Below, piece after piece: positions 20,276 to 39,395 of a stretch of DNA of 60,704 bases. Origin of the DNA: an uncultured Pelagibacteraceae bacterium (GTDB lineage Bacteria > Pseudomonadota > Alphaproteobacteria > Pelagibacterales > Pelagibacteraceae); assembly GCA_902594915.1 (NCBI GenBank), contig CACJOA010000006.1, positions 1-60,704 of the forward strand, read 5' to 3'. The stretch's first letter is position 1, and every line of letters starts with the position of its first letter. The notes under the pieces were generated by a model that did no database searches, was not told the DNA's origin, and saw only the letters and a program-made list of their open reading frames with translations. The translations under genes were made by a program, and so were the position numbers.

Positions 20276-20674
20276 ATGAACAATCCAAACAATCCTTGCT
20301 TATTCTGTGATACAAAAAAAAGTGGTTTTTCACATGAGAATGAACTTGCGTATATAAGCTATGATACATACCCAGTTTCAAAATATCATTGTTTAATAAT
20401 TCCGAAACGTCATGTAGTTGATTGTTTCGAATTAACTGATAATGAAATTATTGCTTGCTACGAACTTATAAAGAAAGTCAAAAAAGAGATTATCAACAAG
20501 GATGATACTATTAAAGGTTTTAATTTAGGAACAAATATCGGAAAAGTATCTGGTCAATCAATTTTTCATTGTCATTATCATTTGATACCACGTAGAAAAG
20601 GCGATGTTAAAAATCCTCAAGGTGGAGTGAGATCTGTTATTCCTGCCAAGCAGCACTATAAGCGTAAAATTTAA
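20276..20674 (+). CDS. HIT-family nucleotide hydrolase/transferase
   Basis: 132 residues. The N-terminus has CLFCDTKKSG (a Zn-type CxxC, residues 8-11), followed by the histidine triad region SIFHCHYHLIPRRKGD near 101-116, in which His-x-His-x-His is the catalytic set. Members hydrolyse nucleoside phosphoramidates or dinucleotides. The gene starts 3 nt after pabC and may share its transcript. No specific substrate can be named. Confidence 0.9.
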   Translation: MNNPNNPCLFCDTKKSGFSHENELAYISYDTYPVSKYHCLIIPKRHVVDCFELTDNEIIACYELIKKVKKEIINKDDTIKGFNLGTNIGKVSGQSIFHCHYHLIPRRKGDVKNPQGGVRSVIPAKQHYKRKI

Positions 20675-20778: not shown

Positions 20779-21573
20779 ATGTTACAAACAAACCCTTTCT
20801 CTATTTTGGCTGAAACTATTTCTCCAATAGCTATGCAAAGCTTTATAATAGCAATGGTAATTTTAATTTTAGTTGGAACAATTATTCAAATGATACATCA
20901 TAAAAATCTTATCTATTTTTTTAATAATGCAAAAAAAGCAAAATTATCAGCTACTAAAGAATTAGGAATAGGGGAAAAAACAACCATCATAGCAAAAACT
21001 GCTGTTGTTGACATAGGAACAACATCTGAACTTGGTTTTGGAAAAAGGAGATTATCTCATGTGCTTGGTATGTATGGCACAATTTTATTTTGGTTATCTT
21101 CAGCAGTATTAGTTTTTTGTTATACTGGTGACAATAAAACAAATTCAGAGACGTGGTCAATTTTATGGCATACTGGAGCAATCCTAACTTGTCTAGGGGG
21201 ATATTGGTTTTGGTTTTTTTTAAGAGTAGATGTATCAGCTGAAGCACATCCGTGGTATAGAATAATTAAAGCTGATTTATTCGTTTTGGCATTGTTAGCT
21301 TGTTCAACTTTTGGACTAGCTTGGTCTTATTTTCAATTTGACGGTCAAGTAGGTTTATCATATTTATTTTTAACCTTATTTATCACATCAAATTTAATTC
21401 TATTTGGCGGAGTTTACTGGTCTAAGTTTGCACATATGTTTTATAAGCCTGGTGCCGCAATTCAAAAAAACCTAGCTGAGGCAGACGGTTCAAGAGACAA
21501 TTTACCTCCACCAGCAGATGCCCCAGAACAATTTGGATTAGGTATAAAAAGAGAAGAGCCAAAACACTATTAA
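20779..21573 (+). CDS. aprM: AprM, putative membrane anchor of adenylylsulfate reductase
   Basis: 264 residues with about five to six membrane helices (first helix near 15-36, others between 95 and 215) and a polar Pro-rich C-terminus (PPPADAPEQFGLG). It lacks haem- or cluster-binding Cys arrays. In sulfur oxidisers such as Allochromatium an aprM gene precedes aprBA and is proposed to link the reductase to the membrane quinone pool; the same order here, 31 nt upstream of aprB, is the main evidence. The electron-transfer role is inferred from that comparison. Confidence 0.75.
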   Translation: MLQTNPFSILAETISPIAMQSFIIAMVILILVGTIIQMIHHKNLIYFFNNAKKAKLSATKELGIGEKTTIIAKTAVVDIGTTSELGFGKRRLSHVLGMYGTILFWLSSAVLVFCYTGDNKTNSETWSILWHTGAILTCLGGYWFWFFLRVDVSAEAHPWYRIIKADLFVLALLACSTFGLAWSYFQFDGQVGLSYLFLTLFITSNLILFGGVYWSKFAHMFYKPGAAIQKNLAEADGSRDNLPPPADAPEQFGLGIKREEPKHY

Positions 21574-21604
21574 TATGTTATTAGAAAGGAAAAAAAAATA
21601 AAAT

Positions 21605-22075
21605 ATGTCAACTTTTGTTTACATGACTAGATGTGATGGTTGTGGACATTGCGTAGATATTTGTCCTTCAGACATAATGCATATAGATGAAAATATTAGA
21701 CGTGCAAAAAATATTGAACCAAATTTTTGCTGGGAGTGCTATTCTTGTGTCAAAGCCTGTCCAAATCATGCAATTGATGTAAGAGGTTATGCAGATTTTG
21801 CGCCAATGGGTCATAGCGTGAGAGTTAGAAGAGAAGAAGAAAAAGGAACAATCTCTTGGAAAATTAAATTTAGAAATGGAACTGAAAAAAATTTTGTATC
21901 TCCAATCACTACAAAACCTTGGGGAAAATTTATACCAAAATTAGCTGAAGGTGATAAACCAAATCAAGGTGAAATTAATTCACAAAGACTTTATACTGAA
22001 CCTGAGGGTTTAAATACTAATCAAGAACTACCATCAGTTCCAAAAGACTCCTTTAAAAAGGGAGTCTATTATTAA
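21605..22075 (+). CDS. aprB: Adenylylsulfate reductase beta subunit AprB
   Basis: A 156-residue iron-sulfur protein. Two ferredoxin-type clusters are predicted from CxxCxxCxxxCP at residues 10-21 and CxxCxxCxxxCP at 42-53. The region PMGHSVRVRREEEKGTISWKIKFRNG near 75-105 is the AprB beta-sheet segment that contacts AprA. It passes electrons between the AprA flavin and the membrane. Its stop overlaps the aprA start (TAATG), consistent with a 1:1 complex. Confidence 0.95.
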   Translation: MSTFVYMTRCDGCGHCVDICPSDIMHIDENIRRAKNIEPNFCWECYSCVKACPNHAIDVRGYADFAPMGHSVRVRREEEKGTISWKIKFRNGTEKNFVSPITTKPWGKFIPKLAEGDKPNQGEINSQRLYTEPEGLNTNQELPSVPKDSFKKGVYY

Positions 22076-23934
22076 TGGCAAAACATAAAACACATTATGA
22101 GGAGTGTGATGTACTTGTAGTGGGTGGTGGTATGGCTGGAACTGGAGCAACCTTTGAGGCTAGACACTGGGGCAGAGACCTAAAAATTGTTTGTGTTGAA
22201 AAAGCTAATATAGATAGAAGTGGAGCAGTCGCACAAGGTCTTTACGCAATAAATTGTTATATGGGAATGCAGTGGGATGAAAATCAACCTGAAGATCATG
22301 TAAGATATGCTAGAAATGATTTAATGGGAATGGTGAGAGAAGATTTAGGTTATGATATGGCTCGTCACGTAGATTCAACTGTGCACATGTTTGATGAATG
22401 GGGATTGCCTATGATGAAAAATGAAAAGACCGGTAGATACTTAAGGGAAGGTAAGTGGCAAATAATGATACACGGTGAAAGTTATAAACCAATCGTAGCA
22501 GAGGCAGCTAAAAAGTCTGCAGATAAAATTTATAACAGAATAATGGTCACTCATTTATTAATGGATGAGACACAAGAGAATAGAATTGGTGGCGCGGTTG
22601 GATTTAATATGAGAACTGGAGATTTCCATGTTTTTAGATCAAAAACTGTAATTGTATCTGCAGGTGGGGCATCACATATTTTTAAACCAAGAGCGGTTGG
22701 AGAAGGTATGGGAAGAACTTGGTACGCTCCCTGGAGTAATGGCTCAGCATATGCCTTGCCTATTGCAGCAGGTGCAAAGATGACACAAATGGAAAATAGA
22801 ATTGTTTTATGCAGATTTAAAGATGGATATGGTCCAGTAGGAGCATATTTTTTGCATTTAAAAACTTACACTCAAAATGCAAATGGAGAAAATTATGAAA
22901 AGAAATGGTACAATCAAACTAAAGAATTAGTTGGAGAATATATTGATCATCATCCAACACCTACTTGTCTAAGAAATCATGCATTTATTCAAGAAGTCGC
23001 CTCTGGCAATGGTCCAATTCATATGGTTACCACTGAAGCTTTTCAAGATCCACATTTAGAGACAGTTGGGTGGGAAAATTTTTTAGGAATGACTGTTGGA
23101 CAAGCAGTTGTTTGGGCTTCTCAAAATATTGATCCTAAATATACAAATCCTGAATTAACTACCTCTGAACCATATGTAATGGGGTCACATGCAACTTGTT
23201 CCGGAGCATGGGTTAGTGGGCCAGAAGATCTTTCTCCACCAGAATATTTTTGGGGCTATAATAGAATGCTAACAATTGATGGGCTCTTTGGAGCTGGTGA
23301 TACTGTTGGTGGAAGTGCTCATAAATTTTCTTCCGGATCATTTACAGAAGGAAGGCTAGCTGCAAAGGCTGCTGTAAAATATATTGAAGATCAAAAAGCT
23401 AAAAATATTAAGGTTTCAGATAAACAATGTGATGATTTTAAAAAAATTGTTTATAAACCACTCGATAATTATACAATTGCCCAAAACGAGATAACAGGTG
23501 GTACAGTATCTCCAAGCTATATATCTCCTATCCAAGGTTTACAAAGACTACAAAAAATTATGGATGAGTATGTTGGCGGTATTACTTCAAACTACATGAC
23601 TAATGGGAACCTTCTTAAAAAAGGGTTAGAGTTATTAGCCTGGTTACAAGAAGATCTAGAGCACGTTGGAGCAGAAGATTATCATCAATTAATGAGAGCA
23701 TGGGAACTTAAACATAGAGCTTTAACGTCTCAATGTGTAACTGAGCACACTTTATTTAGAGAAGAAACTCGTTGGCCAGGATATTATTATAGAGGAGATT
23801 ACATGAAACTTGATGACGAAAATTGGCATTGTTTAACAGTTTCAAGGAGAGACCCTAAAACTGGTAAATTTACATTAGAAAAAGTTCCCGTTTATCACAT
23901 TGTTGATGAAAAAGAGAAAAAGAAAGCCTCATAA
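22075..23934 (+). CDS. aprA: Adenylylsulfate reductase alpha subunit AprA
   Basis: The 619-residue flavoprotein that interconverts AMP plus sulfite and adenylylsulfate. The FAD-binding strand CDVLVVGGGMAGTGATFEARHWG is near 10-32, YAINCYMGMQWDEN near 58-71, and SAGGASHIFKPRA near 195-207; NGSAYALPIAAGAKMTQMENR near 221-241 and HKFSSGSFTEGRLAAKAA near 416-433 are further typical segments. No dissimilatory sulfite reductase genes are nearby, and suy/xsc genes releasing sulfite follow, so the oxidative direction (sulfite to APS) is inferred. ATP sulfurylase is not in the window. Confidence 0.96.
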   Translation: MAKHKTHYEECDVLVVGGGMAGTGATFEARHWGRDLKIVCVEKANIDRSGAVAQGLYAINCYMGMQWDENQPEDHVRYARNDLMGMVREDLGYDMARHVDSTVHMFDEWGLPMMKNEKTGRYLREGKWQIMIHGESYKPIVAEAAKKSADKIYNRIMVTHLLMDETQENRIGGAVGFNMRTGDFHVFRSKTVIVSAGGASHIFKPRAVGEGMGRTWYAPWSNGSAYALPIAAGAKMTQMENRIVLCRFKDGYGPVGAYFLHLKTYTQNANGENYEKKWYNQTKELVGEYIDHHPTPTCLRNHAFIQEVASGNGPIHMVTTEAFQDPHLETVGWENFLGMTVGQAVVWASQNIDPKYTNPELTTSEPYVMGSHATCSGAWVSGPEDLSPPEYFWGYNRMLTIDGLFGAGDTVGGSAHKFSSGSFTEGRLAAKAAVKYIEDQKAKNIKVSDKQCDDFKKIVYKPLDNYTIAQNEITGGTVSPSYISPIQGLQRLQKIMDEYVGGITSNYMTNGNLLKKGLELLAWLQEDLEHVGAEDYHQLMRAWELKHRALTSQCVTEHTLFREETRWPGYYYRGDYMKLDDENWHCLTVSRRDPKTGKFTLEKVPVYHIVDEKEKKKAS

Positions 23935-23951
23935 AATTATAATTTAAATTT

Positions 23952-24302
23952 ATGGATCTTTTAGAAAAATCAGATGAGGAGATTTTTGTAATTGCCAAAC
24001 CATTTTGGGAAAATTTAGTTAGAGCTTCGAATATGAAGGATTATGGTGGTTTTACTAAGGATTTTTCAACACAAATGTTGTTTGGAGCTAATGAAGTTGA
24101 ACTAGGGAAACAATGGGCAAACAATAAAATTATCACAAATCTAGATGAAACTTACAAACCTTTTGGAACTTTAAGACGTGGGGACCATATAACGGTATTA
24201 ATCAAACAGACAAATAAGGAAATACCTGGGGAGTTCCTTGGAAGATTAGTCTTAGGTGTTGAGGACGGTGAGATAAAGATCTTTGGTGCAACAATTTATT
24301 AA
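23952..24302 (+). CDS. 116-aa protein of unknown function in the apr cluster
   Basis: A soluble, acidic protein starting 17 nt after aprA on the same strand. It has mixed helix and strand character: an N-terminal helical half (EKSDEEIFVIAKPFWENLVRAS), KDYGGFTKDFSTQMLFGANEVELGKQW, then beta-like repeats around DHITVLIKQTNK and EFLGRLVLGVEDGEIKIFGATIY. The layout weakly suggests an NTF2/SnoaL-like fold, but no family is firmly recognised. Position suggests a role tied to sulfite oxidation or its substrates. Confidence 0.8.
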   Translation: MDLLEKSDEEIFVIAKPFWENLVRASNMKDYGGFTKDFSTQMLFGANEVELGKQWANNKIITNLDETYKPFGTLRRGDHITVLIKQTNKEIPGEFLGRLVLGVEDGEIKIFGATIY

Positions 24303-24346
24303 TTATAGTTTGACAATTTTTTTACTGGGTGTATTCAGTAGTTTAA

Positions 24347-24481
24347 ATGCGTGTTTCAAATTTAAAAATTCTAAATAGCTTAATTAACAAAAAAACAACT
24401 TTTATTAAAACTGGAATTTTTTCAGCAATTGTTACTTGTTGGGGCGTGATTTTATTTGGGACTTTTATAACTTTTAAATAA
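24347..24481 (+). CDS. 44-aa single-pass membrane ORF between apr and tauE genes
   Basis: A short ORF with ATG at 24347, an in-frame stop immediately before it, and TAA at 24479-24481. It has a basic N-terminal half (MRVSNLKILNSLINKKTTFIK) and one hydrophobic helix (GIFSAIVTCWGVILFGTFIT). It fills the otherwise empty 206-nt space between the 116-aa gene and the TauE-like exporter, 27 nt before the latter. No clear ribosome-binding site is seen, and the family is not recognised. Confidence 0.4.
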   Translation: MRVSNLKILNSLINKKTTFIKTGIFSAIVTCWGVILFGTFITFK

Positions 24482-24508
24482 TTAATTTTAAAAGTTTTTT
24501 GTTATTGG

Positions 24509-25603
24509 ATGGAAGTTTTTTTACCTATTGCACAAGTTTTTGTAAATCCTATAGAAATCCTTTTTTTAAGTGCCTTAGTAGGAATTTTGTCAGGATTATT
24601 TGGTGTTGGAGGGGGCTTTTTAATGACACCTTTTTTGATTTTTTTAGGGGTTCCCCCAGCTTATGCAGTTGCGAATGAAGCCAATAATATTTTAGCAACA
24701 TCTGTATCAGGATCTACAACTCATTGGTTAAAAAATACTTTAGATTACAAAATGGGTTTTATAATTGTCATCGGCGGTTCTATTGGAACAGCCTTAGGTA
24801 TTTATACATTTAGTTATTTTAAAGGTATTGGCAAAATAGATACAGTTATTTCATTAGCTTATATGTATATTTTAGCAATCATAGGTACATTAATGCTTGT
24901 AGAAAGCCTTGGTGAAATAGATAAGGCAAAAAAAAATATTGTAGAGAAAAAAAAATTACATGTTCATTATTGGATACACGGACTTCCTTTTCGAATGAGA
25001 TTTCCAAAGTCAAAATTATATGAAAGTATTTTTACACCTATTATAATTGGTTTAGCAGTTGGTTTTATTGCAGCAATTATGGGCATTGGAGGGGCTTTTA
25101 TATTAGTACCAGCAATGATTTATATCATTAAGATGCCAACAAGACTAGTTCCTGGAACATCTTTATTTGTAACAATTTTTGTAAGTGTAATTGTAACTTT
25201 TCTTCATTCATTTAATTATGGTTCTATAGACCTAATGTTAGTTGTCATGCTTGTAGTTGGATCAATAATAGGAGTTCAGGTCGGTCAAAAATTAGGAGAA
25301 AAGATTGATAGCTCTGGTCTAAAAGCTCTCTTAGCAATTTTATTGTTAATTGTAGGAATAGCCATAGCTTATGACACTTTTTTTGCTGAAGAAATTCAAA
25401 AAGAAATTATAAAGGTTGCAAATAAGGATTTAAACTTTTTTTCAAAATTTATTCGAGAATTTTCTAAAGATATGCCATTCTTTTATGGATTATTTTCTAT
25501 TTTATTTGCTGTTCTTTTGGGAATAGGAGCTGCATTTATAAGAAGATTTTTATCAAACTTAAGAAAAAAATATTTAGCTAGTATTGCAAAACAAGCTAAG
25601 TAA
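24509..25603 (+). CDS. tauE: TauE/SafE-family anion exporter
   Basis: 364 residues with eight or more membrane helices in two homologous halves; each half starts with the family motif (GLFGVGGGFLMTPFLIFLGVP near 30-50 and AAIMGIGGAFILVPAMIYI near 191-209). TauE/SafE proteins are implicated in export of sulfite or sulfonates from taurine and sulfonate degraders. Here it sits between aprBA and suy/xsc, supporting sulfite or sulfoacetate-type export. It has an extended C-terminal tail with one further helix (FFYGLFSILFAVLLGIGAAFIRRF). It converges on the YeiH gene with an 8-nt overlap. Confidence 0.87.
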   Translation: MEVFLPIAQVFVNPIEILFLSALVGILSGLFGVGGGFLMTPFLIFLGVPPAYAVANEANNILATSVSGSTTHWLKNTLDYKMGFIIVIGGSIGTALGIYTFSYFKGIGKIDTVISLAYMYILAIIGTLMLVESLGEIDKAKKNIVEKKKLHVHYWIHGLPFRMRFPKSKLYESIFTPIIIGLAVGFIAAIMGIGGAFILVPAMIYIIKMPTRLVPGTSLFVTIFVSVIVTFLHSFNYGSIDLMLVVMLVVGSIIGVQVGQKLGEKIDSSGLKALLAILLLIVGIAIAYDTFFAEEIQKEIIKVANKDLNFFSKFIREFSKDMPFFYGLFSILFAVLLGIGAAFIRRFLSNLRKKYLASIAKQAK

Positions 25604-26681
25604 AAAATTTTGATACAGTTTGAATATAAATCAAACTAATAAAACCAACTGTTACAGCTGCAATTAAACCAACTACGAATGGTTTATAACCCATTAATCT
25701 TAATTCGCTTAAATTAATCGATATTCCTACTGCGGCCATAGCCATTGTCAAAAAGGTTGTTGCTAGAATTTTTACAATCTCGATAAAATTGATCCAATAA
25801 ATATGACTCTCTTTTTCAATTGAAAAGATTTGATCACCTAAATTTCTAATTATTATCATGCCAATAAAACCTAAAACGAAATATGGGAAAATATCTAAAA
25901 CAGAATAAGAATTGCCTTTCATTTCTCCCCGATTATATAAAAAGGCAAATAAAGGGATCATTACAACAAGAAAAGTATTTCGAATTAATTTAGTAACTGT
26001 AGCGACGTTCAGAGTCTCAGGACTATTGAACTGTTGATCATAAATAAGACCCGCAGCTGCTACTTGTGATGTCTCATGAATTGCAGTACCTAAAAATAGA
26101 CCCGCCTTTAGTTCATTTTCATTGAAGAACCATTCAGCAAAGTATGGATATACAATCATAGCAATAACACCAAATAAAGTAATGTTAGCTATTGCGTATG
26201 CAATTTCAGTTTTTTTAGCATTTATGACAGGAGCAGTCGCTACAATTGCTGTAGCCCCACAGACACTTGTCCCAATAGCAATTAAATAAGACATTTTTGA
26301 TGAGATGGGAACTTTTTTGATTAAAAGCTTAATTAATATTAGCACTGCAAGAATACAAACTATTATTAGCGGTATAGCGATTGATCCAAATTTTATAAAC
26401 TCTTCAAAACTTAATCTTATTCCTAAACAAATAATCCCAAGTTTTAAAATATATTGTTGTGTAAAATCAAGACCAAGCATCATACCTGGTCTTGGTGTAA
26501 AAGCATTACCCATTATGATGCCTAAAATAATTGCAATTAAAACAGTTGAAATAGGACTTTTTGATGTTCCAAAAATTTCTATTGCTAAAACATTGTTAAT
26601 TCCTTGAGAAAATAAAAAAAAGATTAAAGCTAAAGTTACACCTGGAAAAATCTTTTTTATATATAAAAATTTTGAAGACAC
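25596..26681 (-). CDS. yeiH: YeiH-family (UPF0324) putative sulfate exporter
   Basis: 361 residues with about ten membrane helices. Family hallmarks: LGIIMGNAFTPRPGMMLGLDFTQQYILKLGIICLGIRLS near 53-91, GTSVCGATAIVATAPVI near 137-153, and GTAIHETSQVAAAGLIYD near 197-215. This family includes genes linked to taurine and sulfonate clusters, where sulfate or sulfite export is proposed. The start is GTG at 26681. suyB starts upstream on the same strand and ends 21 nt before it, so they are likely one operon. Confidence 0.88.
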   Translation of the reverse strand: MSSKFLYIKKIFPGVTLALIFFLFSQGINNVLAIEIFGTSKSPISTVLIAIILGIIMGNAFTPRPGMMLGLDFTQQYILKLGIICLGIRLSFEEFIKFGSIAIPLIIVCILAVLILIKLLIKKVPISSKMSYLIAIGTSVCGATAIVATAPVINAKKTEIAYAIANITLFGVIAMIVYPYFAEWFFNENELKAGLFLGTAIHETSQVAAAGLIYDQQFNSPETLNVATVTKLIRNTFLVVMIPLFAFLYNRGEMKGNSYSVLDIFPYFVLGFIGMIIIRNLGDQIFSIEKESHIYWINFIEIVKILATTFLTMAMAAVGISINLSELRLMGYKPFVVGLIAAVTVGFISLIYIQTVSKFFT

Positions 26682-26702
26682 TATATAAAAGAAAATTGAG
26701 GC

Positions 26703-27869
26703 TTATGCACTTCTATAGAGCTTAGTCATAACAAACTCTTTGTGACCTAAAGCTTCAGCACAGGTTAATCTTCCATTAGCCACTCTTAGTGTTGTCTCAA
26801 TGAGTTTATCTCCCGCGTCTGATAAATTCATTTCTCTTGAAAGAATTTTAGATACATCACAATCTACATGCTCACTCATACTTTTAGCAGTTAATGGATT
26901 AGCAGTTAATTTGACAACTGGTTCAATTGGATTTCCAACAATATTTCCTTGTCCAGTTGGAAATAAATGAATGTTAAATCCACCTGCTGCTTGCAGAGTG
27001 ATACATTCAGCTGCCGCTGATGACGTATCCATAAAATATAATCCTGGGCCTTTTTCAGGTTGTTCCGCTGGCTCAAGCACATCTATAAATTTTAAATTTC
27101 CAATTTTTTGAAAATTTCCAAAAGCTTTTTCCTCAATAGTTGTTAAACCACCCGCTATATTTCCTGCCGTTGGTTGACTTTCTGAAAGATCATTGGTTGC
27201 CTCTTTTAAAATAAAATTATTATAATCATTCCAAGTTTTCATAAATTTCTCTGAAGCCTCTTTAGTTGCTCCTCTAGAAGCACAAACTTGCTCAGCACCT
27301 GTAAGCTCGGAAGTTTCACCAAAACACAAATGAACTCCCATAGGTTCTAATTTTTCCATTAAATTTCCTACGGTCGGATTTGAAGCTAATCCAGATGTTG
27401 TATCCGACTCCCCACATTTTACTGAAATCCATAAATCACTCATTGGACATTCCTCTCTCTGTTTCTCTGATGCCCATTGTGAAAATTCTTGTGCTTTTTT
27501 AGAAGCTTTCATTACGGTACCAATATCTCCTGTTCTTTCAATATGAAAACCCTCTACAGGTTTTCCAGTTTTTGCTATTCCATCTACTATTCTTTTTGTC
27601 CACTTTGGCTCAATACCAATAACTATTACAGCTGCAACGTTTGGATTACTTCCAGTCCCAATCATGGTTCTAAAATGTAAATCTAAATCTGCTCCAAATT
27701 GAAGTCTTCCGTAAGAGTGTGGCAACGCAATAGTTCCTTTAATATTATTAGCCACAGCTTCTGCACAAGCATTTGAAATATCGTCTACAGGCAAAATAAT
27801 AACATGATTTCTGGTTCCTGCTCTCCCGTTTTCTCTCTTATATCCTAAAAAACTTTTTGGAATTTGCAT
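26703..27869 (-). CDS. suyB: Sulfolactate sulfo-lyase large subunit SuyB (UxaA/altronate dehydratase family)
   Basis: 388 residues. The fold is that of the UxaA/GarD C-terminal domain: [21 protein letters not shown] near 6-26, [31 protein letters not shown] near 46-76, [20 protein letters not shown] near 147-166 (probable metal-binding Cys), and [18 protein letters not shown]. SuyAB splits (2R)-sulfolactate into pyruvate and sulfite; altronate or galactarate dehydratase is the main alternative. The split small subunit alongside and the adjacent xsc and apr genes make the sulfonate assignment much more likely. Confidence 0.82.
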
Positions 27870-27873
27870 TTGC

Positions 27874-28158
27874 TTACCACTTCTTTGTTTTTACGTTATG
27901 AACATGAACATGCTCACCTTTTTTTATTGATTTTACTACTTTACCGATATCATGACCATATTTTAAGATTGTATCGCCTTCTTTTAAGTCGACCATTGCA
28001 ATTTTATGCCCAAGAGGAATTTCATCTATTGATTGTATGTTAATTGAGCTATCGTTTTCCATTACCCAGCATTTACAGTCTTGATTTGGGGTTATTTTCT
28101 CAATTACTACTACCCCTACATTGTCTTTTTTATCGTGAATAATGATATCAGTCGCCAT
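27874..28158 (-). CDS. suyA: Sulfolactate sulfo-lyase small subunit SuyA (SAF domain)
   Basis: 94 residues with a SAF-like/UxaA N-terminal domain: [22 protein letters not shown] near the start, [28 protein letters not shown] in the middle, and [12 protein letters not shown] at the end, where the His cluster matches the substrate-binding loop of the family. ATG at 28158 is preferred to a TTG at 28218 because the domain starts there. It lies 4 nt upstream of suyB. Its promoter must share the gap with divergent xsc. Confidence 0.82.
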
Positions 28159-28222
28159 ATTTTTTATAGTGTCGATTTGTTTGTTTGAATTTCTAGAAAT
28201 CTTATATATTAATCGCAAAAAT

Positions 28223-28249
28223 TAACAATTATTTTTATAAAAATTGTTA
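28223..28249. promoter_or_regulatory. Inverted repeat between divergent suyA and xsc
   Basis: TAACAATT (28223-28230) and AATTGTTA (28242-28249) form perfect 8-bp arms around an 11-nt spacer, 28 nt before the xsc start and on the upstream side of suyA. Position between divergent genes suits an operator that regulates both sulfonate branches together. It is AT-rich, so chance symmetry cannot be dismissed. Confidence 0.35.
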
Positions 28250-28276
28250 TTTTATTAGTTAAGAAAGGATCTACTA

Positions 28277-30061
28277 ATGACTAAAATGACTACAGAAGAA
28301 GCCTTTGTAAAAGTTTTACAAATGCACGGTATAGAACATGCCTTTGGAATTATTGGCTCAGCATTTATGCCTATATCAGATATATTTCCTGATGCAGGAA
28401 TTACTTTCTGGGATGTTGCTCATGAGTCAAATGGTGGGTTAATTGCTGATGGTTACACAAGATCCACAGGAAAAATGTCTATGGTTATTGCTCAAAATGG
28501 ACCAGGTATTACTGGACTGGTTACACCAATCAAAACAGCTTATTGGAATCATACACCTTTATTACTAGTAACACCTCAAGCGGCAAATAAAACAATGGGA
28601 CAAGGAGGATTTCAAGAGGTTGAGCAAATGAATCTGTTTAAAGACATGGTTTGTTATCAAGAAGAAGTTAGAGATCCGTCTAGAATGGCAGAAGTTTTAA
28701 ATCGAGTAATAGAAAAAGCAATTAGAGGTTCAGCACCAGCACAAATTAATGTTCCTAGAGATTATTGGACACAAGTAATAGATATTGAATTACCACCAAT
28801 CGTAAGGTTAGAGAGACAAGGTGGGGGAGTAGAGGCAATTGATAAAGCTGCTAAACTTTTATCAAGTGCAAAATTTCCAGTGATCTTGTCTGGAGCAGGA
28901 GTAGTAATAGGTGGTGCAATTGAAGAAACAAAAAAAATAGCTGAAAAACTAGACTCACCAGTTTGTTCTGGTTATCAACACAATGATAGCTTTCCTGGAA
29001 GTCATCCATTAGCTGTAGGACCATTAGGATACAATGGGTCAAAAGCTGCAATGGAATTAATTTCAAAAGCTGATGTTGTTTTAGCCCTTGGAACAAGACT
29101 AAACCCTTTCTCAACACTTCCCGGATATGGTATTGATTATTGGCCTAAGAAAGCAAATATAATTCAAGTTGATATAAATCCTGATAGAATTGGATTAACT
29201 AAGAAAGTTACTGTGGGAATAAGCGGTGATGCAAAATTAGTTGCTCAACAAATATTTGATAAATTGTCTTCAAATGCTGGAGATACTGATAGACAAAAAA
29301 GAAAAGATTTAATTCATCAAACAAAATCAGCCTGGTTACAAAAACTATCTAGCTTAGACCATGAAGAAGACGATGAGGGAACAGTTTGGAATAAAGAAGC
29401 AAGAGAACGAGATAAAGATAGAATGTCTCCAAGACAAGCGTGGAGAGCGATTCAATCTGGAATGCCTCAAGATGTAATAATTTCAAGTGATATTGGAAAT
29501 AATTGTGCAATTGGAAATGCTTACCCAACTTTTGAAAAACCAAGAAAATATTTAGCCCCAGGTTTGTTTGGACCTTGTGGTTATGGTTTCCCCTCAATTT
29601 TAGGAGCAAAAATTGGATGTCCAGATACTCCTGTAATCGGTTTTGCTGGAGATGGGGCTTTCGGCATTAGCATGAATGAAATGAGCTCTTGTGCGAGAGA
29701 AGAGTGGCCTGCGATAACAATGGTAATTTTTAGAAATTATCAATGGGGTGCAGAAAAAAGAAATACTACATTATGGTTTGATAATAATTTTGTTGGAACA
29801 GAGCTAGATCCAGAGTTGAGTTACGCAAAAGTTGCTGATGCATGTGGTTTAAAAGGAGTTACTGTTAAGACAATGGAAGAAACAACTGCAGCAATTAAGC
29901 AATCTTGCGAAGATCAGAAAAAAGGTATTACTACTTTTATTGAGATAATACTTAACCAAGAACTTGGAGAACCTTTTAGAAGAGATGCAATGAAAAAGCC
30001 AGTAAGAGTAGCAGGTATTAACAAAAAGGATATGAAGAAACAACCATCTCTGAATTCTTAA
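28277..30061 (+). CDS. xsc: Sulfoacetaldehyde acetyltransferase Xsc
   Basis: A thiamine diphosphate enzyme of 594 residues that converts sulfoacetaldehyde plus phosphate to acetyl phosphate and sulfite. Strong segments: GIIGSAFMPISDIFPDAGI near 24-42, HESNGGLIADGYTRSTGK near 49-66 with the cofactor-activating Glu, GTRLNPFSTLPGYGIDYWPK near 273-292, and the ThDP-binding GDGAFGISMNEMSS near 459-472 (GDG...N form). The match to Xsc rather than acetolactate synthase is good over the whole length. AAGGA precedes the ATG. No pta gene follows; the 3' neighbour is a convergent phosphomutase. Confidence 0.93.
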   Translation: MTKMTTEEAFVKVLQMHGIEHAFGIIGSAFMPISDIFPDAGITFWDVAHESNGGLIADGYTRSTGKMSMVIAQNGPGITGLVTPIKTAYWNHTPLLLVTPQAANKTMGQGGFQEVEQMNLFKDMVCYQEEVRDPSRMAEVLNRVIEKAIRGSAPAQINVPRDYWTQVIDIELPPIVRLERQGGGVEAIDKAAKLLSSAKFPVILSGAGVVIGGAIEETKKIAEKLDSPVCSGYQHNDSFPGSHPLAVGPLGYNGSKAAMELISKADVVLALGTRLNPFSTLPGYGIDYWPKKANIIQVDINPDRIGLTKKVTVGISGDAKLVAQQIFDKLSSNAGDTDRQKRKDLIHQTKSAWLQKLSSLDHEEDDEGTVWNKEARERDKDRMSPRQAWRAIQSGMPQDVIISSDIGNNCAIGNAYPTFEKPRKYLAPGLFGPCGYGFPSILGAKIGCPDTPVIGFAGDGAFGISMNEMSSCAREEWPAITMVIFRNYQWGAEKRNTTLWFDNNFVGTELDPELSYAKVADACGLKGVTVKTMEETTAAIKQSCEDQKKGITTFIEIILNQELGEPFRRDAMKKPVRVAGINKKDMKKQPSLNS

Positions 30062-35242: not shown

Positions 35243-35887
35243 ATGAAATATAAAAAATATTTTAGAAAAACTAGCCTTAAGCAAATGGGGCATGGTGAAT
35301 TCTTTCTTGAACAAATTAAGTTAAAAAAACCGAAATTTTTTTTAGAAATAGGGGTGTTTCATGGAGTAACAGCTAGGAATGTATGTGAGCTTTTAAATAC
35401 AATACATAATAAAGATTTTAAATATATGGGTGTAGATTTGTTTGAAAAAAATGATGATAATAAATCAGAATTTATACCCGAAATAAAATTTTCAAATCCT
35501 CTAAAAACAATTTATTTTAAATTTATTAAGAAACAAAACCCCTATAGTTTAGAGGCAGTAGAAGACTTACTTAAAAATTTTCAAAATAATGTTGAGTTGA
35601 TAAAAGGTAACTCAAACCAAATTTTAAAAAAAATTGATATGACGAAAATTGATTATGTTTTTTTGGATGGCGGTCATGATTATGAAACTATTAAAAATGA
35701 TTTAGAAAATTGCAAAGTGGTTGTAGAAAACAATGGTACTATCCTATGTGATGATTATAATTTATCTTATGCTCCAGGCGTAAAAAAAGCCATAGATGAG
35801 TACGTTGAAATAAATAAATTCAAATGTGAAATTTTGCTAAATTCTCGATTTGCTAAAATTGAAAAAAATAATTTACCTTTGGTTTAA
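35243..35887 (+). CDS. Class I SAM-dependent methyltransferase
   Basis: 214 residues, Methyltransf_24-like. SAM motif I is FFLEIGVFHGVTARNV near 33-48, motif II YMGVDLFEK near 62-70, and the catalytic-metal motif YVFLDGGHDYETIKNDL near 137-153, followed by LCDDYNLSYAPGV. The DGGHDY loop is typical of this subgroup, often associated with glycan or small-molecule O-methylation. It stands alone between nrd/nitroreductase and the prp operon, convergent with the latter (15-nt overlap). Target unknown. Confidence 0.82.
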   Translation: MKYKKYFRKTSLKQMGHGEFFLEQIKLKKPKFFLEIGVFHGVTARNVCELLNTIHNKDFKYMGVDLFEKNDDNKSEFIPEIKFSNPLKTIYFKFIKKQNPYSLEAVEDLLKNFQNNVELIKGNSNQILKKIDMTKIDYVFLDGGHDYETIKNDLENCKVVVENNGTILCDDYNLSYAPGVKKAIDEYVEINKFKCEILLNSRFAKIEKNNLPLV

Positions 35888-36997
35888 CTGAACAACTTTT
35901 CTATGTCGATTTCCCTTATAACTTGCAAGAGGTCTTATAAGCTTGTTAGCAGCATGTTGCTCCATAATATGTGCTGACCAACCGGTAATTCTAGAGATAA
36001 CAAAAATTGGTGTAAAAAAATCTGTATCAAAACCCATTAAATGATAAGTAGGACCAGTGGGATAATCTACATTTGGATGTATGTTCTTTCTATCAATCAT
36101 TACCTTCTCTACAATGTCATAAATTCTCTCAAATTTTTTATCTTTTTTTAATTTAGCAACTTTTGCAAAATATTTTCTCATTGTAGGAACTCTAGAATCT
36201 CCACTCTTATAAACTCTATGTCCAAATCCCATTACTACCTCTTTATTATCTAGTGCCTCATTTATCCATCTTAATGCATTTTCCGGTCTTTTAATTTTAT
36301 TCATCATGTGCATAACTTCTTCATTGGCCCCACCATGAAGAGGTCCTTTTAAGCTAGCAATAGCTCCAGTAATTGCTCCATGAATATCAGATAAGCTACT
36401 AGTAATAGTTCTTGCTGTAAAAGTAGAAACATTAAAACTATGTTCAGCATATAAAATTAATGATACATCAAATGCTTTAACAATTTCTTTTTGTGGCACT
36501 TTACCAAAACACATATGAAAAAAGTTTTCTGCAATATTTAAATTTTTTTTGGGTTTAATTATTTTTTTTCCTTTTCGTAGTCTATAGAATGCTGCTAAAG
36601 CAGTTGGAGTTTTAGCTAAAATTCTTATAGCTTTTCTCATATTAGCTTCTAAAGATGAGTCTGTTGTTTCTTTGTCCTCTAAACCCATAATACTCACTGC
36701 AGTTCTAGCTACATCCATAGGATGAGATTTTTTTGGCATTCTTTTAATTGCAGAATAAAGCTCTCGTGATAAGTCTCTATTGTTTCTCTCTTCTTTTTCA
36801 AATTTTTTTAGCTGAATTGTATTTGGTAAATCTTTATTTAGTATTAAATAGGCCACTTCCTCAAACTTGCAATATTCACATAAATCTTGTGCAGCATAAC
36901 CTCTATAGGTGAGAGAATTTATTTCTGGCATCACTTTTGAAACCTCGGTTTCATCGACTACAATACCCAGCAACCCTTTTTTAATTTCATCAGTCAT
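35873..36997 (-). CDS. prpC: 2-methylcitrate synthase / citrate synthase family
   Basis: 374 residues of the citrate synthase fold, condensing propionyl-CoA (or acetyl-CoA) with oxaloacetate. Visible: GLLGIVVDETEVSKV and SLTYRGYAAQDLCE near the N-terminus, GPLHGGANEEVMHM with the catalytic His near 220, VMGFGHRVYKSGDSR near 257-271, and the terminal arm FFTPIFVISRITGWSAHIMEQ. Length and the adjacent prpB and prpD strongly favour 2-methylcitrate synthase over the housekeeping citrate synthase. Start and stop codons overlap by one base with prpB. Confidence 0.9.
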   Translation of the reverse strand: MTDEIKKGLLGIVVDETEVSKVMPEINSLTYRGYAAQDLCEYCKFEEVAYLILNKDLPNTIQLKKFEKEERNNRDLSRELYSAIKRMPKKSHPMDVARTAVSIMGLEDKETTDSSLEANMRKAIRILAKTPTALAAFYRLRKGKKIIKPKKNLNIAENFFHMCFGKVPQKEIVKAFDVSLILYAEHSFNVSTFTARTITSSLSDIHGAITGAIASLKGPLHGGANEEVMHMMNKIKRPENALRWINEALDNKEVVMGFGHRVYKSGDSRVPTMRKYFAKVAKLKKDKKFERIYDIVEKVMIDRKNIHPNVDYPTGPTYHLMGFDTDFFTPIFVISRITGWSAHIMEQHAANKLIRPLASYKGNRHRKVVQLNQR

Positions 36998-37893
36998 TAT
37001 TCATGTCCCTCAGTACTAAAATTATAAATTTTTTCATCTAAGCTATTATATTTCTCATAGTCAACAAGTTCATATAGTCGTTTTCTTGTCTGCATTTTAT
37101 CAATTATATTATTTTGATGTCCATTTGTATAAATGTCTCTTAATCCATCCTCAACATTTTTCATAGCTAGTCTTTGGGTAGTGACGGGATAAATTACAAT
37201 ATTATAACCCAAAGATTCTAATTCTTTATAATTAAATAGCTTTGATTTTCCAAATTCTGTCATGTTCGCGAGCAAGTAGCATGAAAGATTCTTTCTCACT
37301 TTCTCAAAATCATTTTTATCTTGTAATGCTTCAGGAAAAATTATTTCAGCCCCAGCGTCTATGTAAGCTTTGCATCTGTTGATCATTTTATCAATTCCTT
37401 CAACGCTCATTGCATCTGATCTAGCAATAATTTTAAAGTTTTCATCTTTTCTTGAGGATACACATTCTTTTATCTTTTTTACCATATCCTCGGTGGTAAT
37501 TAATTCTTTATTGTCTAAATGACCACATCTTTTTCTCTCAATTTGATCTTCTAAATGTACAGCAGTTATTCCAAATTGTTCAAAAGTTTCAATTGTCTCC
37601 TTACAGGATTTAAATCCTGTATCTATATCAACAATTGTAGGTAAATTTGTAACTCTTGAAATGAGGTAAGATCTAGTACTTACGTCCTGCAAAGTTGTTA
37701 AACCAATATCAGGAAAACCTAGGTCATTAGCCATCACTCCACCTGATACATACACTGCGTCGTACCCAATTTCTTCTATTAATTTTGCGGTTAGAGGATT
37801 ATAAGCTCCTGGAACTCTGAGAATTCTATTCGACTTTAACTTTTCTAAAAAATCTATTCTTTTTTGTTTTGGCTCTTTATCTATAAAATGCAT
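36997..37893 (-). CDS. prpB: 2-methylisocitrate lyase PrpB
   Basis: 298 residues of the isocitrate lyase/PEP mutase superfamily. The catalytic motif LEDQIERKRCGHLDNKEL near 116-133 contains the KRCGH signature with the active Cys, preceded by IVDIDTGFKS (Mg site Asp) near 88. It cleaves 2-methylisocitrate into pyruvate and succinate, ending the methylcitrate cycle. TAATG overlap with prpD upstream and prpC downstream indicates one coupled operon. Confidence 0.93.
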   Translation of the reverse strand: MHFIDKEPKQKRIDFLEKLKSNRILRVPGAYNPLTAKLIEEIGYDAVYVSGGVMANDLGFPDIGLTTLQDVSTRSYLISRVTNLPTIVDIDTGFKSCKETIETFEQFGITAVHLEDQIERKRCGHLDNKELITTEDMVKKIKECVSSRKDENFKIIARSDAMSVEGIDKMINRCKAYIDAGAEIIFPEALQDKNDFEKVRKNLSCYLLANMTEFGKSKLFNYKELESLGYNIVIYPVTTQRLAMKNVEDGLRDIYTNGHQNNIIDKMQTRKRLYELVDYEKYNSLDEKIYNFSTEGHE

Positions 37894-39395
37894 TAAAAAA
37901 TTCCTTTTTTTAAATTTCTCTTTAATTTACTTTTTTTTACTTCAATATTTAACTTATTTAGTTGTCCTGATTTTATTTTTTTAAGACTTTGAACTGTTTT
38001 TAAGAACCTTTTACTCTCTTTTTTATCAAGAATATCATTAGTTAATGTTAAAAATTTATCTATATAATTTTTTCTTTTAAATGGCCTTGATCCATAAGGG
38101 TGTGCATCTGCTTTATCTTGTTGTTCAATTATTTTCTTACCGTTTTTCATAGTTATAATTACTTTAGCTCCAAATGATTTCTTCTTAGGATCTGGATCAT
38201 GATATTTTTTTGTCCATTTTTTATCCTCATGCGTTTTAATAGATCTCCAGATTTTTATAGTACTTTTCTTTTTTGCTCTAGTTTTTGTATAAGATTTAAT
38301 ATGATGCCAGTTTCCGTCTTCTAAAGCCACTGCAAATATATACATAATTGAATGATCCAGTGTTTCTCTACTAGCATTTGGATCCATTTTTTGTGGATCA
38401 TTTGCACCAGTACCTATTACATAATGTGTATGATGACTTGTATAAATATCAATTTTTTTAATTTGATTTAAATTTTGAATTTTTTTTCTGAGTTTTTTTG
38501 CTAAATCAATTAATGCTTGGGATTGATATTCAGCAGAATACTCTTTTGTATATGTTTCCAGAATTGCTTTCTTTATCTCACCTTTTTTTGGAAGAGGAAC
38601 ACTGTAGATTGCTTTCTTGCCATCTAAGATCCTCGCTATCACACTATCCTCACCTTCATATATTGGGCTTGGTGATCCTTCTCCTCGCATAACTCTGTCA
38701 ACAGCCTCGATTGCCAATTTTCCAGCATGAGCAGGTGCATATGCTTTCCAACTAGAAATTTCTCCTTTTCTTGATTGCCTTGTTGAAATAGTTGTATGAA
38801 GAGCTTGCTGTATTGCTTGATAGATTGTTTCCGTATTTAATTTAAGCATTGAACCAAGTCCTGCAGCAACACTAGGTCCAAGATGAGCTATGTGATCAAC
38901 TTTATGTTTATGCAAACAAATACCTTTGACCAAATTTACCTGAACTTCATAAGCAGTAATGATTCCTCTTAAAAGATCCATTCCACTTTTTTTATTTTGT
39001 TGTGCAACACTTAATAATGGAGGAATATTATCCCCTGGATGGCTGTAATCAGCTGCCAAAAAAGTATCGTGAAAATCGAGCTCTCTAACTGCTGTACCAT
39101 TAGACCAAGCTGCCCATTCACAATCAAATTTAAGTTTATTACTTACACCAAACAATTGTGCACCATTTTTCCTTTGATGTTTTAAAGTCATTTCTCTAGA
39201 TGTGACAACAGGTTTTCTATTTAGAGATGCAATTGCCACTGACGCATTATCTATTATTCTATTAATAGCCATTTCAATTGCATTTTTATTTAATTTTGCA
39301 TTATCACTTGCGATCTCTGCAATTTTCCATGCAAGCTGTTTCTTTTTGGGAAGAAATATTTTAGACGGATAAACTTTCACCTTATGTAATATCAA
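37893..39395 (-). CDS. prpD: 2-methylcitrate dehydratase PrpD (MmgE/PrpD family)
   Basis: 500 residues of the MmgE/PrpD family. Conserved parts: [13 protein letters not shown] near 22-34, [34 protein letters not shown] near 97-130, [17 protein letters not shown] near 169-185, and [24 protein letters not shown] near 211-234. It dehydrates 2-methylcitrate to 2-methyl-cis-aconitate. The start appears to be TTG (39395), matching where homologs begin ([11 protein letters not shown]), with no ATG close by in frame. It is first gene of prpDBC. A hydratase (AcnB or PrpF/AcnD) needed for the next step would be encoded elsewhere. Confidence 0.92.

Follow-up and report, generated by a model that had tools for sequence, protein, structure and literature searches.

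What happens to the sulfite that is set free when SAR11 bacteria use sulfonates, and what becomes of the adenosine 5'-phosphosulfate (APS) into which it may be oxidized? SAR11 is described in PMC12636525 as a dominant heterotroph group of the surface ocean, and taurine and 2,3-dihydroxypropane-1-sulfonate (DHPS) are usable by it according to passages of PMC3090418 and PMC11131964. The question is raised by a gene island at positions 20779-30061 of a 60,704-nucleotide stretch of DNA (the window), which is contig C6 of the uncultured Pelagibacteraceae genome G000 (1.05 Mb, 88.6% complete). The island combines the APS reductase genes aprMBA, two probable exporter genes, and genes for two enzymes expected to release sulfite, SuyAB and Xsc. 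With a probability of about 0.85, it is the sulfite-producing and sulfite-oxidizing half of SAR11 sulfonate catabolism. Such an island had been proposed from the letters of the window, and it is real: every gene named in that original prediction is found where it was placed, with its reading frame intact, the family models agree, and the gene order is kept across the genus. The genes are as follows.

20276-20674, plus strand: HIT-family protein, 132 aa (PF01230, 62 bits), 5' neighbor of aprM; island membership uncertain, possibly part of the pab operon
20779-21573, plus strand: aprM, membrane protein of lineage I APS reductase loci, named from its position before aprB and its relatives
21605-22075, plus strand: aprB, APS reductase beta subunit (TIGR02060, 188 bits, cut-off 136; PF12139, 113 bits)
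22075-23934, plus strand: aprA, APS reductase alpha subunit (TIGR02061, 990 bits, cut-off 642)
23952-24302, plus strand: orf116, unnamed protein of 116 aa, directly 3' of aprA, its place conserved in the order
24509-25603, plus strand: tauE, TauE/SafE-family exporter, probably of sulfite or sulfate (PF01925, 156 bits, above cut-off)
25596-26681, minus strand: yeiH, UPF0324/YeiH-family putative sulfate exporter (PF03601, 218 bits, above cut-off), co-directional with suyAB
26703-27869, minus strand: suyB, (2R)-sulfolactate sulfo-lyase large subunit (GD_AH_second, 114 bits, and GD_AH_C, 282 bits, both above cut-off)
27874-28218, minus strand: suyA, (2R)-sulfolactate sulfo-lyase small subunit, SAF-type, paired with suyB
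28277-30061, plus strand: xsc, sulfoacetaldehyde acetyltransferase (TIGR03457, 963 bits, cut-off 676; NF005713, 1035 bits, cut-off 620)

Genes and enzymes of the island

The arrangement of the island is not due to chance. In the 24 loci from the genus of the window, the order, as far as the contigs reach, is MetC-like, major facilitator superfamily transporter, pabB, pabA, pabC, HIT, aprM, aprB, aprA, orf116, tauE, (yeiH), suyB, suyA, xsc. The species collection yielded 582 relatives of AprA; a wider set of named loci is made up of the best 80 of these, and thus of the nearest part of the group. Among the 61 named SAR11 loci that extend at least 9 kb 3' of aprA, orf116 is present in 61, yeiH in 46, and each of tauE, suyB, suyA, and xsc in 60; every one of the 60 named loci extending as far as suyA has it paired with suyB. 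The interval between tauE and suyB was also compared in 104 pooled loci, in which some genomes are possibly counted twice: yeiH occupies it in 67, it is empty in 31, and it holds a thioredoxin-like gene in four and a small cytochrome c gene in three, one of these alongside yeiH. The genes that replace or join yeiH are the small cytochrome c genes of L191 (13402), L196 (9701), and L284 (8172), and the thioredoxin-like genes of L077 (10526), L080 (6254), L082 (6681), and L084 (5892).

The APS reductase has the features of the oxidative type, as had been predicted. AprA matches the structures 2fja and 1jnr from A. fulgidus with an E-value of about 1e-198. It shares 99% identity with the AprA of an uncultured Pelagibacteraceae assembly, single-cell or metagenomic (L137), which places the window in SAR11, and 71-81% identity with the aprM-linked type in 17 genomes of the class. 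Identity to the copies in G104, G298, and G404 and to the second copy in G061 is 52-53%, and the one such locus that was fetched (L248) has no match to aprM. On pairwise identity, and not on a tree, AprA sides with the aprM-linked oxidative lineage I type and not with the reductive type. AprM itself has no Pfam match and only a weak NCBIfam match to QmoC (E 0.0018), but tblastn aligns it at 42-54% identity with the gene preceding aprB at 16 of the 18 Apr loci from outside the order. Passages of PMC5069961 report that apr transcripts drop under sulfur limitation, which fits with a role in sulfite removal.

The gene that follows aprA, orf116, was overlooked in the earlier reading. It lies 3' of aprA in 40 of 40 loci, 24 from the genus and 16 from another Pelagibacterales family, and relatives with 46% identity follow aprA in L246 (near 10935) and L247 (near 1679), which belong to another alphaproteobacterial family. 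The protein has no Pfam or NCBIfam match at E 0.01 and no sequence match in the PDB. Its model (mean predicted local distance difference test score, pLDDT, 77) has a helix and a four-stranded sheet; the best Foldseek E-value is 0.031, with several NTF2-like folds among the weak matches.

For SuyAB, the most informative evidence is the company its relatives keep. Among plasmid-borne sequences, the 13 records nearest to SuyB are 61-69% identical to it. In Cupriavidus pinatubonensis, whose SuyB relative is at 64%, suyAB comes after genes annotated hpsN and hpsO; in Paracoccus versutus a putative sulfate exporter follows suyB, and a gene annotated hisD, a short-chain dehydrogenase/reductase gene, and a sulfite oxidase gene lie in the same stretch. 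Relatives of suyAB adjoin TauE and an Ldh-family gene in Methylobacterium, and a hydroxyacid dehydrogenase and an Ldh-family oxidoreductase in Rhodococcus koreensis. The two-chain make-up of the enzyme, with a small SAF-type and a large GD_AH-type chain, is found here, the small chain being recognized weakly: its Pfam SAF match is below threshold (17.6 against 21 bits), and an NCBIfam match to the N-terminal part of galactarate dehydratase has 39 bits. The sole solved structure matching SuyB is a galactarate dehydratase. Judged from identity values and not from a tree, SuyAB belongs with proteins of sulfolactate and DHPS clusters (61-69%) rather than with annotated altronate and galactarate enzymes (26-38% alike, for SuyB).

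Some names and boundaries in the list are cautious. AprM and SuyA are named by place and by relatives because the former has no Pfam match and the latter a weak one. YeiH has 151 bits where the TIGR00698 cut-off is 233, hence the naming as YeiH-like only; it is 28% identical to the putative sulfate exporter of Paracoccus versutus. The listed start of suyA is a TTG at 28218, while relative L181 starts at an ATG equivalent to about 28155 here; the true start is probably the ATG near 28155. The family models and the neighbors of relatives support the predicted picture of two sulfite-releasing enzymes next to an oxidative-type APS reductase and exporters.

A second cluster and the proposed pathway

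Transport, phosphotransacetylase, and a sulfolactate-dehydrogenase-like function had been expected elsewhere in the genome, and counterparts of each are found on contig C15 of G000. The contig starts inside a tauC-like permease gene, which is followed by an Ldh-family gene, pta (303 aa), and, directly 3' of pta, an HpsN-like gene of the histidinol-dehydrogenase family. G000 has two copies of this family. The HpsN-like protein is 57% identical to HpsN of Cupriavidus and 61% to the Paracoccus protein, and 32% to the other copy in G000. In the other Pelagibacterales family, which has no suyB, there is at most one gene of this family (23 genomes with one, 1 with none). In relatives L274, L275, and L276 the second cluster is whole, with tauB and tauA as well as a divergent class III aminotransferase gene and an alanine dehydrogenase gene; in L277 it is nearly whole, as far as the stretch reaches. 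Stretches of G267 and G357 picked by guesswork do not hold the cluster, which carries no weight either way. From its place in the cluster, the aminotransferase may be a taurine:pyruvate aminotransferase. The make-up of the second cluster agrees with the published presence of tauABC and use of taurine in HTCC1062 (in passages of PMC3090418) and with the activity of SAR11 HpsN on DHPS (in passages of PMC11131964).

From these observed genes, families, and linkages we infer the substrates, the direction of AprBA, the electron path, and export. The HpsN-like dehydrogenase coded on the other contig would convert DHPS to R-sulfolactate, which SuyAB would cleave into pyruvate and sulfite. Taurine would become sulfoacetaldehyde by way of the importer and aminotransferase of the relatives' second cluster; Xsc would convert sulfoacetaldehyde and phosphate to acetyl phosphate and sulfite, and Pta, coded beside HpsN, would turn acetyl phosphate into acetyl-CoA. 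AprBA would then join sulfite and AMP to form APS, passing two electrons via AprM to the membrane, and TauE and, where present, YeiH would release sulfite or sulfate. Passages of PMC12636525 list aprAB, suyAB, and xsc as core or near core in Pelagibacteraceae.

Several findings weigh against this pathway. The best NCBIfam model of the Ldh-family protein is L-sulfolactate dehydrogenase, but with 245 bits against a cut-off of 500, and the best model of the aminotransferase, above its cut-off, is AptA, a general omega-aminotransferase. The genes tauAB and the aminotransferase gene were not seen in G000 itself, where contig C15 begins within tauC. The yeiH gene is inconstant in both the named and the pooled loci. 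SuyB is present in 30 of 37 genomes of the genus and in none of the 24 genomes of the other Pelagibacterales family; AprA is present in 16 of those 24, with orf116 after aprA in 16 of 16. Since that family retains aprMBA-orf116 without suyB, Apr is not bound to SuyAB and Xsc alone. Finally, with no Sat-type ATP sulfurylase in any of 37 genomes of the genus, the textbook route from AprBA to Sat is incomplete.

The fate of APS without a Sat-type sulfurylase

Sat-type ATP sulfurylase (PF01747) has no match in G000 or in any other of the 37 genomes of the genus (CysDN was not searched for). The original interpretation stands in its two sulfite-releasing enzymes, its oxidative AprMBA, its exporters, and several of the parts it placed elsewhere, but its expectation of sat elsewhere in the genome is not supported. 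The other Pelagibacterales family has Sat in 1 of 24 genomes, and that genome lacks AprA. Outside the order, 20 of 385 genomes of the class bear Apr (AprA E-value at most 1e-60); Sat is present in 19 of these 20, and sat lies near apr in 13 of 18 fetched Apr loci. The loss of Sat is therefore a trait of Pelagibacterales and not of alphaproteobacterial aprMBA. Passages of PMC5069961 report cysDN and sat to be absent from P. ubique, and passages of PMC10356861 report most SAR11 to be without ATP sulfurylase. Among the open-licence papers listed in literature searches there was no proposal for an APS-consuming enzyme in SAR11, though one may have been published all the same.

For the missing step, the best candidate is a pair of small proteins, a nucleotidyltransferase with an HxGH motif and an APS-kinase-like protein. 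The nucleotidyltransferase may be a minimal ATP sulfurylase that converts APS and pyrophosphate to ATP and sulfate, with an APS kinase as its partner, which would complete the pathway above; on the sequence evidence this stands a little below an even chance. In the other Pelagibacterales family, a P-loop gene (best Pfam match, APS kinase) and the gene for a 131-aa HxGH nucleotidyltransferase run towards aprMBA-orf116. In all 16 Apr-bearing genomes of that family a distance of 344-355 bp separates the nucleotidyltransferase gene from aprA, and all 8 genomes without Apr lack the gene (Fisher p 1.4e-6), although linkage by itself would cause the pair and Apr to be gained and lost together. Pelagibacterales genomes that are at least 90% complete (n = 22) include 14 with both, 2 with Apr only (G009 and G357), none with the pair only, and 6 with neither, two of which belong to another genus of the same family (p 3.8e-4). 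The presence and absence sets for these counts were compiled by hand from search tables. In keeping with the sulfurylase reading, all 20 Apr-bearing genomes outside the order lack the nucleotidyltransferase.

Co-occurrence is less favorable to a sulfurylase in other respects. In the genus of the window the pair is unlinked to apr and its co-occurrence with Apr is not significant (25 genomes have both, 7 have Apr alone, 3 have the pair alone, and 2 have neither); the nucleotidyltransferase is found in 28 of 37 genomes, near the expectation from completeness (sum 28.7). In G000 the kinase and nucleotidyltransferase genes are both on contig C24, separated by one other gene. The Apr-bearing genome G357 is 99% complete and has a frame-shifted copy, G380 has Apr with neither Sat nor the pair, and G083 has both Sat and the pair.

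Several features of the kinase and of the neighborhoods of the pair speak for a link to sulfate activation. The kinase is above the Pfam APS_kinase gathering score in five of five tested proteins (L102, L260, L266, L259, and L218), and the kinase half of the fused protein of L266 matches 23 PDB sequences, every one an APS kinase or a sulfurylase that carries an APS kinase domain. The cut-off of the NCBIfam apsK equivalog is not reached by the SAR11 kinase L218 (37.6 against 138.7 bits); only the haloarchaeal fusion L290 passes (158.3 bits). In a third lineage, L260 has the operon cobA-cysI-cysH-kinase-nucleotidyltransferase with its domains confirmed, and L262 is alike by reading; the genes upstream of the pair in L260 code for a tetrapyrrole methylase, sulfite reductase, and 3'-phosphoadenosine 5'-phosphosulfate (PAPS) reductase, a place that needs sulfate activation. 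Of the two genomes, G083 also carries Sat. On haloarchaeal plasmids the kinase and nucleotidyltransferase form one protein, annotated cysC and above the apsK cut-off, which lies directly 3' of a sulfotransferase gene in each of the 7 regions opened (9 haloarchaeal records matched). The pair adjoins a tetratricopeptide-repeat sulfotransferase in L259, and in L265 a sulfotransferase gene lies 2.7 kb away from a fused form, but the fused forms in L263 and L266 have no sulfur neighbor by eye. Fused kinase-nucleotidyltransferases, annotated as kinase or hypothetical, also occur in five phages (L227 at 4001, L228 at 4001, and three more): three of Stenotrophomonas, one of Xanthomonas, and one of Clavibacter.

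The nucleotidyltransferase itself is more ambiguous. The catalytic signatures HxGH and ISATKIR are invariant in nine of nine aligned proteins. There is no match to Sat (PF01747); the best models are CTP_transf_like and nicotinamide mononucleotide (NMN) adenylyltransferase, the closest families are NMN adenylyltransferases and not Sat, and a NadR-like salvage role is the natural alternative. A fold model made from a viral relative (pLDDT 74) gives Z-scores of 8.8 for phosphopantetheine adenylyltransferase, 8.1 for NMN adenylyltransferase, and 7.5 for ATP sulfurylase; these are tied or nearly so, and the predicted fold does not separate ATP sulfurylase from the other two. The model has no Foldseek match at E 0.001, and the C-terminal part of the haloarchaeal fusion has just two chance-level matches among PDB sequences. 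Relatives of the nucleotidyltransferase number at least 511 among the 600 pattern matches listed from marine viral contigs. In the 80 viral loci studied (L297-L376) the kinase adjoins in 67 of 79, but BLAST found no cysH, cysI, aprA, or sulfotransferase. A DUF2061 gene lies near the pair in 20 viral loci, as in the cysH operon of L262.

If the activity is as predicted, the nucleotidyltransferase of about 125 aa would be a third and so far unrecognized kind of ATP sulfurylase, partnered with or fused to APS kinase. In SAR11 it would run in reverse, from APS and pyrophosphate to ATP and sulfate, finishing the oxidation of sulfite by AprBA and filling the Sat gap; in haloarchaea and the cysIH lineages it would run forward, to APS and PAPS; and it would be carried by marine viruses. 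This broader claim is tentative, with the chances leaning somewhat against it. The puzzle of forward AprBA without ATP sulfurylase in SAR11 is narrowed to two small, expressible genes. Should the nucleotidyltransferase prove to be a sulfurylase, SAR11 would obtain ATP and form sulfate when it uses sulfonates, and many genomes read as incapable of sulfate activation would need re-reading.

APS may instead not be converted to sulfate with a gain of energy: it could be hydrolyzed by general enzymes or made into PAPS for sulfation by the APS-kinase-like protein, with most sulfite leaving via TauE. The lack of Sat in the genus, the presence of an exporter gene next to apr at 60 of the 61 named loci, and the APS-kinase-like gene of G000 are all in keeping with this possibility, as is the statement in passages of PMC10356861 that sulfate excretion from taurine is not demonstrated in cultured SAR11. 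However, the strong purifying selection on the costly aprMBA-orf116 operon described in passages of PMC12636525 argues for a real flux, and an energetically idle fate for APS is less likely than not.

In a third reading APS is consumed by the HIT-family protein encoded before aprM, acting on it either as a phosphorylase of the ADP sulfurylase type or as a hydrolase. Enzymes of the HIT superfamily are able to act on APS. Of the 67 named loci that include sequence upstream, 65 have the gene before aprM; a close copy is present in 30 of 37 genomes of the genus, and an ATP adenylyltransferase model matches the protein distantly (E 1.2e-12). These points speak for it as the main APS consumer, but loci L181, L191, L283, and L284 keep apr without the HIT gene, and in L191 the HIT gene is gone along with pabBAC. 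The HIT gene is also closer to pabC (2-62 bp) than to aprM (100-120 bp), and the other Pelagibacterales family has apr with only generic HIT proteins of 30-34% identity. The apr loci without HIT and the closeness to pabC make the candidate unlikely. At positions 7894-8562 of L191, a gene of the TENA/THI-4/PQQC family takes the place of pabBAC and HIT; we take it to be possibly an alternative source of p-aminobenzoate. In genome G018, the gene at the HIT locus (L088, 10962-11954) encodes a fusion of the HIT domain with a domain of the HNH endonuclease type.

The reading of the SuyAB-like proteins as altronate or galactarate dehydratases in a cluster for sugar acids is rejected on identity and neighbors as highly improbable. 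The best named NCBIfam model is galactarate dehydratase, but its 149 bits are far under the cut-off of 731, the identity values favor the sulfolactate and DHPS clusters, and the enzyme is in two chains adjoining xsc and apr; the predicted sulfo-lyase is retained.

Two further observations concern the window. Rfam gave one match at the locus, below its gathering score (E 0.19) and taken as chance, and so no regulatory RNA is recognized there. On the minus strand at 35873-39395, genes resemble a prpCBD-type (2-methylcitrate) cluster, by reading of the sequence only.

Comparison with known systems

The lineage I aprMBA of sulfur-oxidizing bacteria (PMC2211403) has aprM before aprBA, as does SAR11, and AprA is close to that of such alphaproteobacterial loci; however, the other alphaproteobacterial genomes with aprMBA nearly all have Sat, and the Apr-bearing genomes of Pelagibacterales do not. 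Taurine dissimilation in 'Ca. Taurinisymbion ianthellae' likewise has Xsc feeding APS reductase, but according to passages of PMC10356861 that organism has Sat and QmoAB, while the SAR11 locus has aprM in place of qmo and the genus has no Sat-type gene. The clusters of Cupriavidus pinatubonensis and Paracoccus versutus (hpsN-hpsO ... suyA-suyB) have SuyAB at 64% and 67% identity to the SAR11 proteins, respectively, with HpsN also related. The putative sulfate exporter after suyB in Paracoccus versutus resembles the yeiH-suyB neighborhood of the island. The sulfite enzyme nearby in Paracoccus is an annotated sulfite oxidase, whereas SAR11 has APS reductase, and its hpsN-like gene is on another contig. 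The candidate pair resembles PAPS synthetase systems in its APS-kinase-like part and HxGH nucleotidyltransferase, which in some genomes are fused with the kinase first and the nucleotidyltransferase second, but its nucleotidyltransferase has about 120-135 aa and is nearer to NMN adenylyltransferase than to Sat, its activity being a prediction.

The closest likeness is to SAR11 itself. The disposal of sulfite by AprBA in 'Ca. Pelagibacter ubique' (PMC5069961) and the core aprAB, suyAB, and xsc of Pelagibacteraceae (PMC12636525) involve the same genes, the same group, and the same proposed role, and since aprAB, suyAB, and xsc in SAR11 and the use of Apr against sulfite are already published there, the island genes themselves restate published biology. 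The passages of these two papers that bear on the island do not describe the gene order, orf116, the second cluster, or the sulfurylase candidate, which come from the present analysis. New here are the counts that show how well the island and orf116 are conserved, the second cluster of G000, the clear difference in Sat between Pelagibacterales and Apr-bearing alphaproteobacteria of other orders, and a testable candidate for the step from APS to sulfate.

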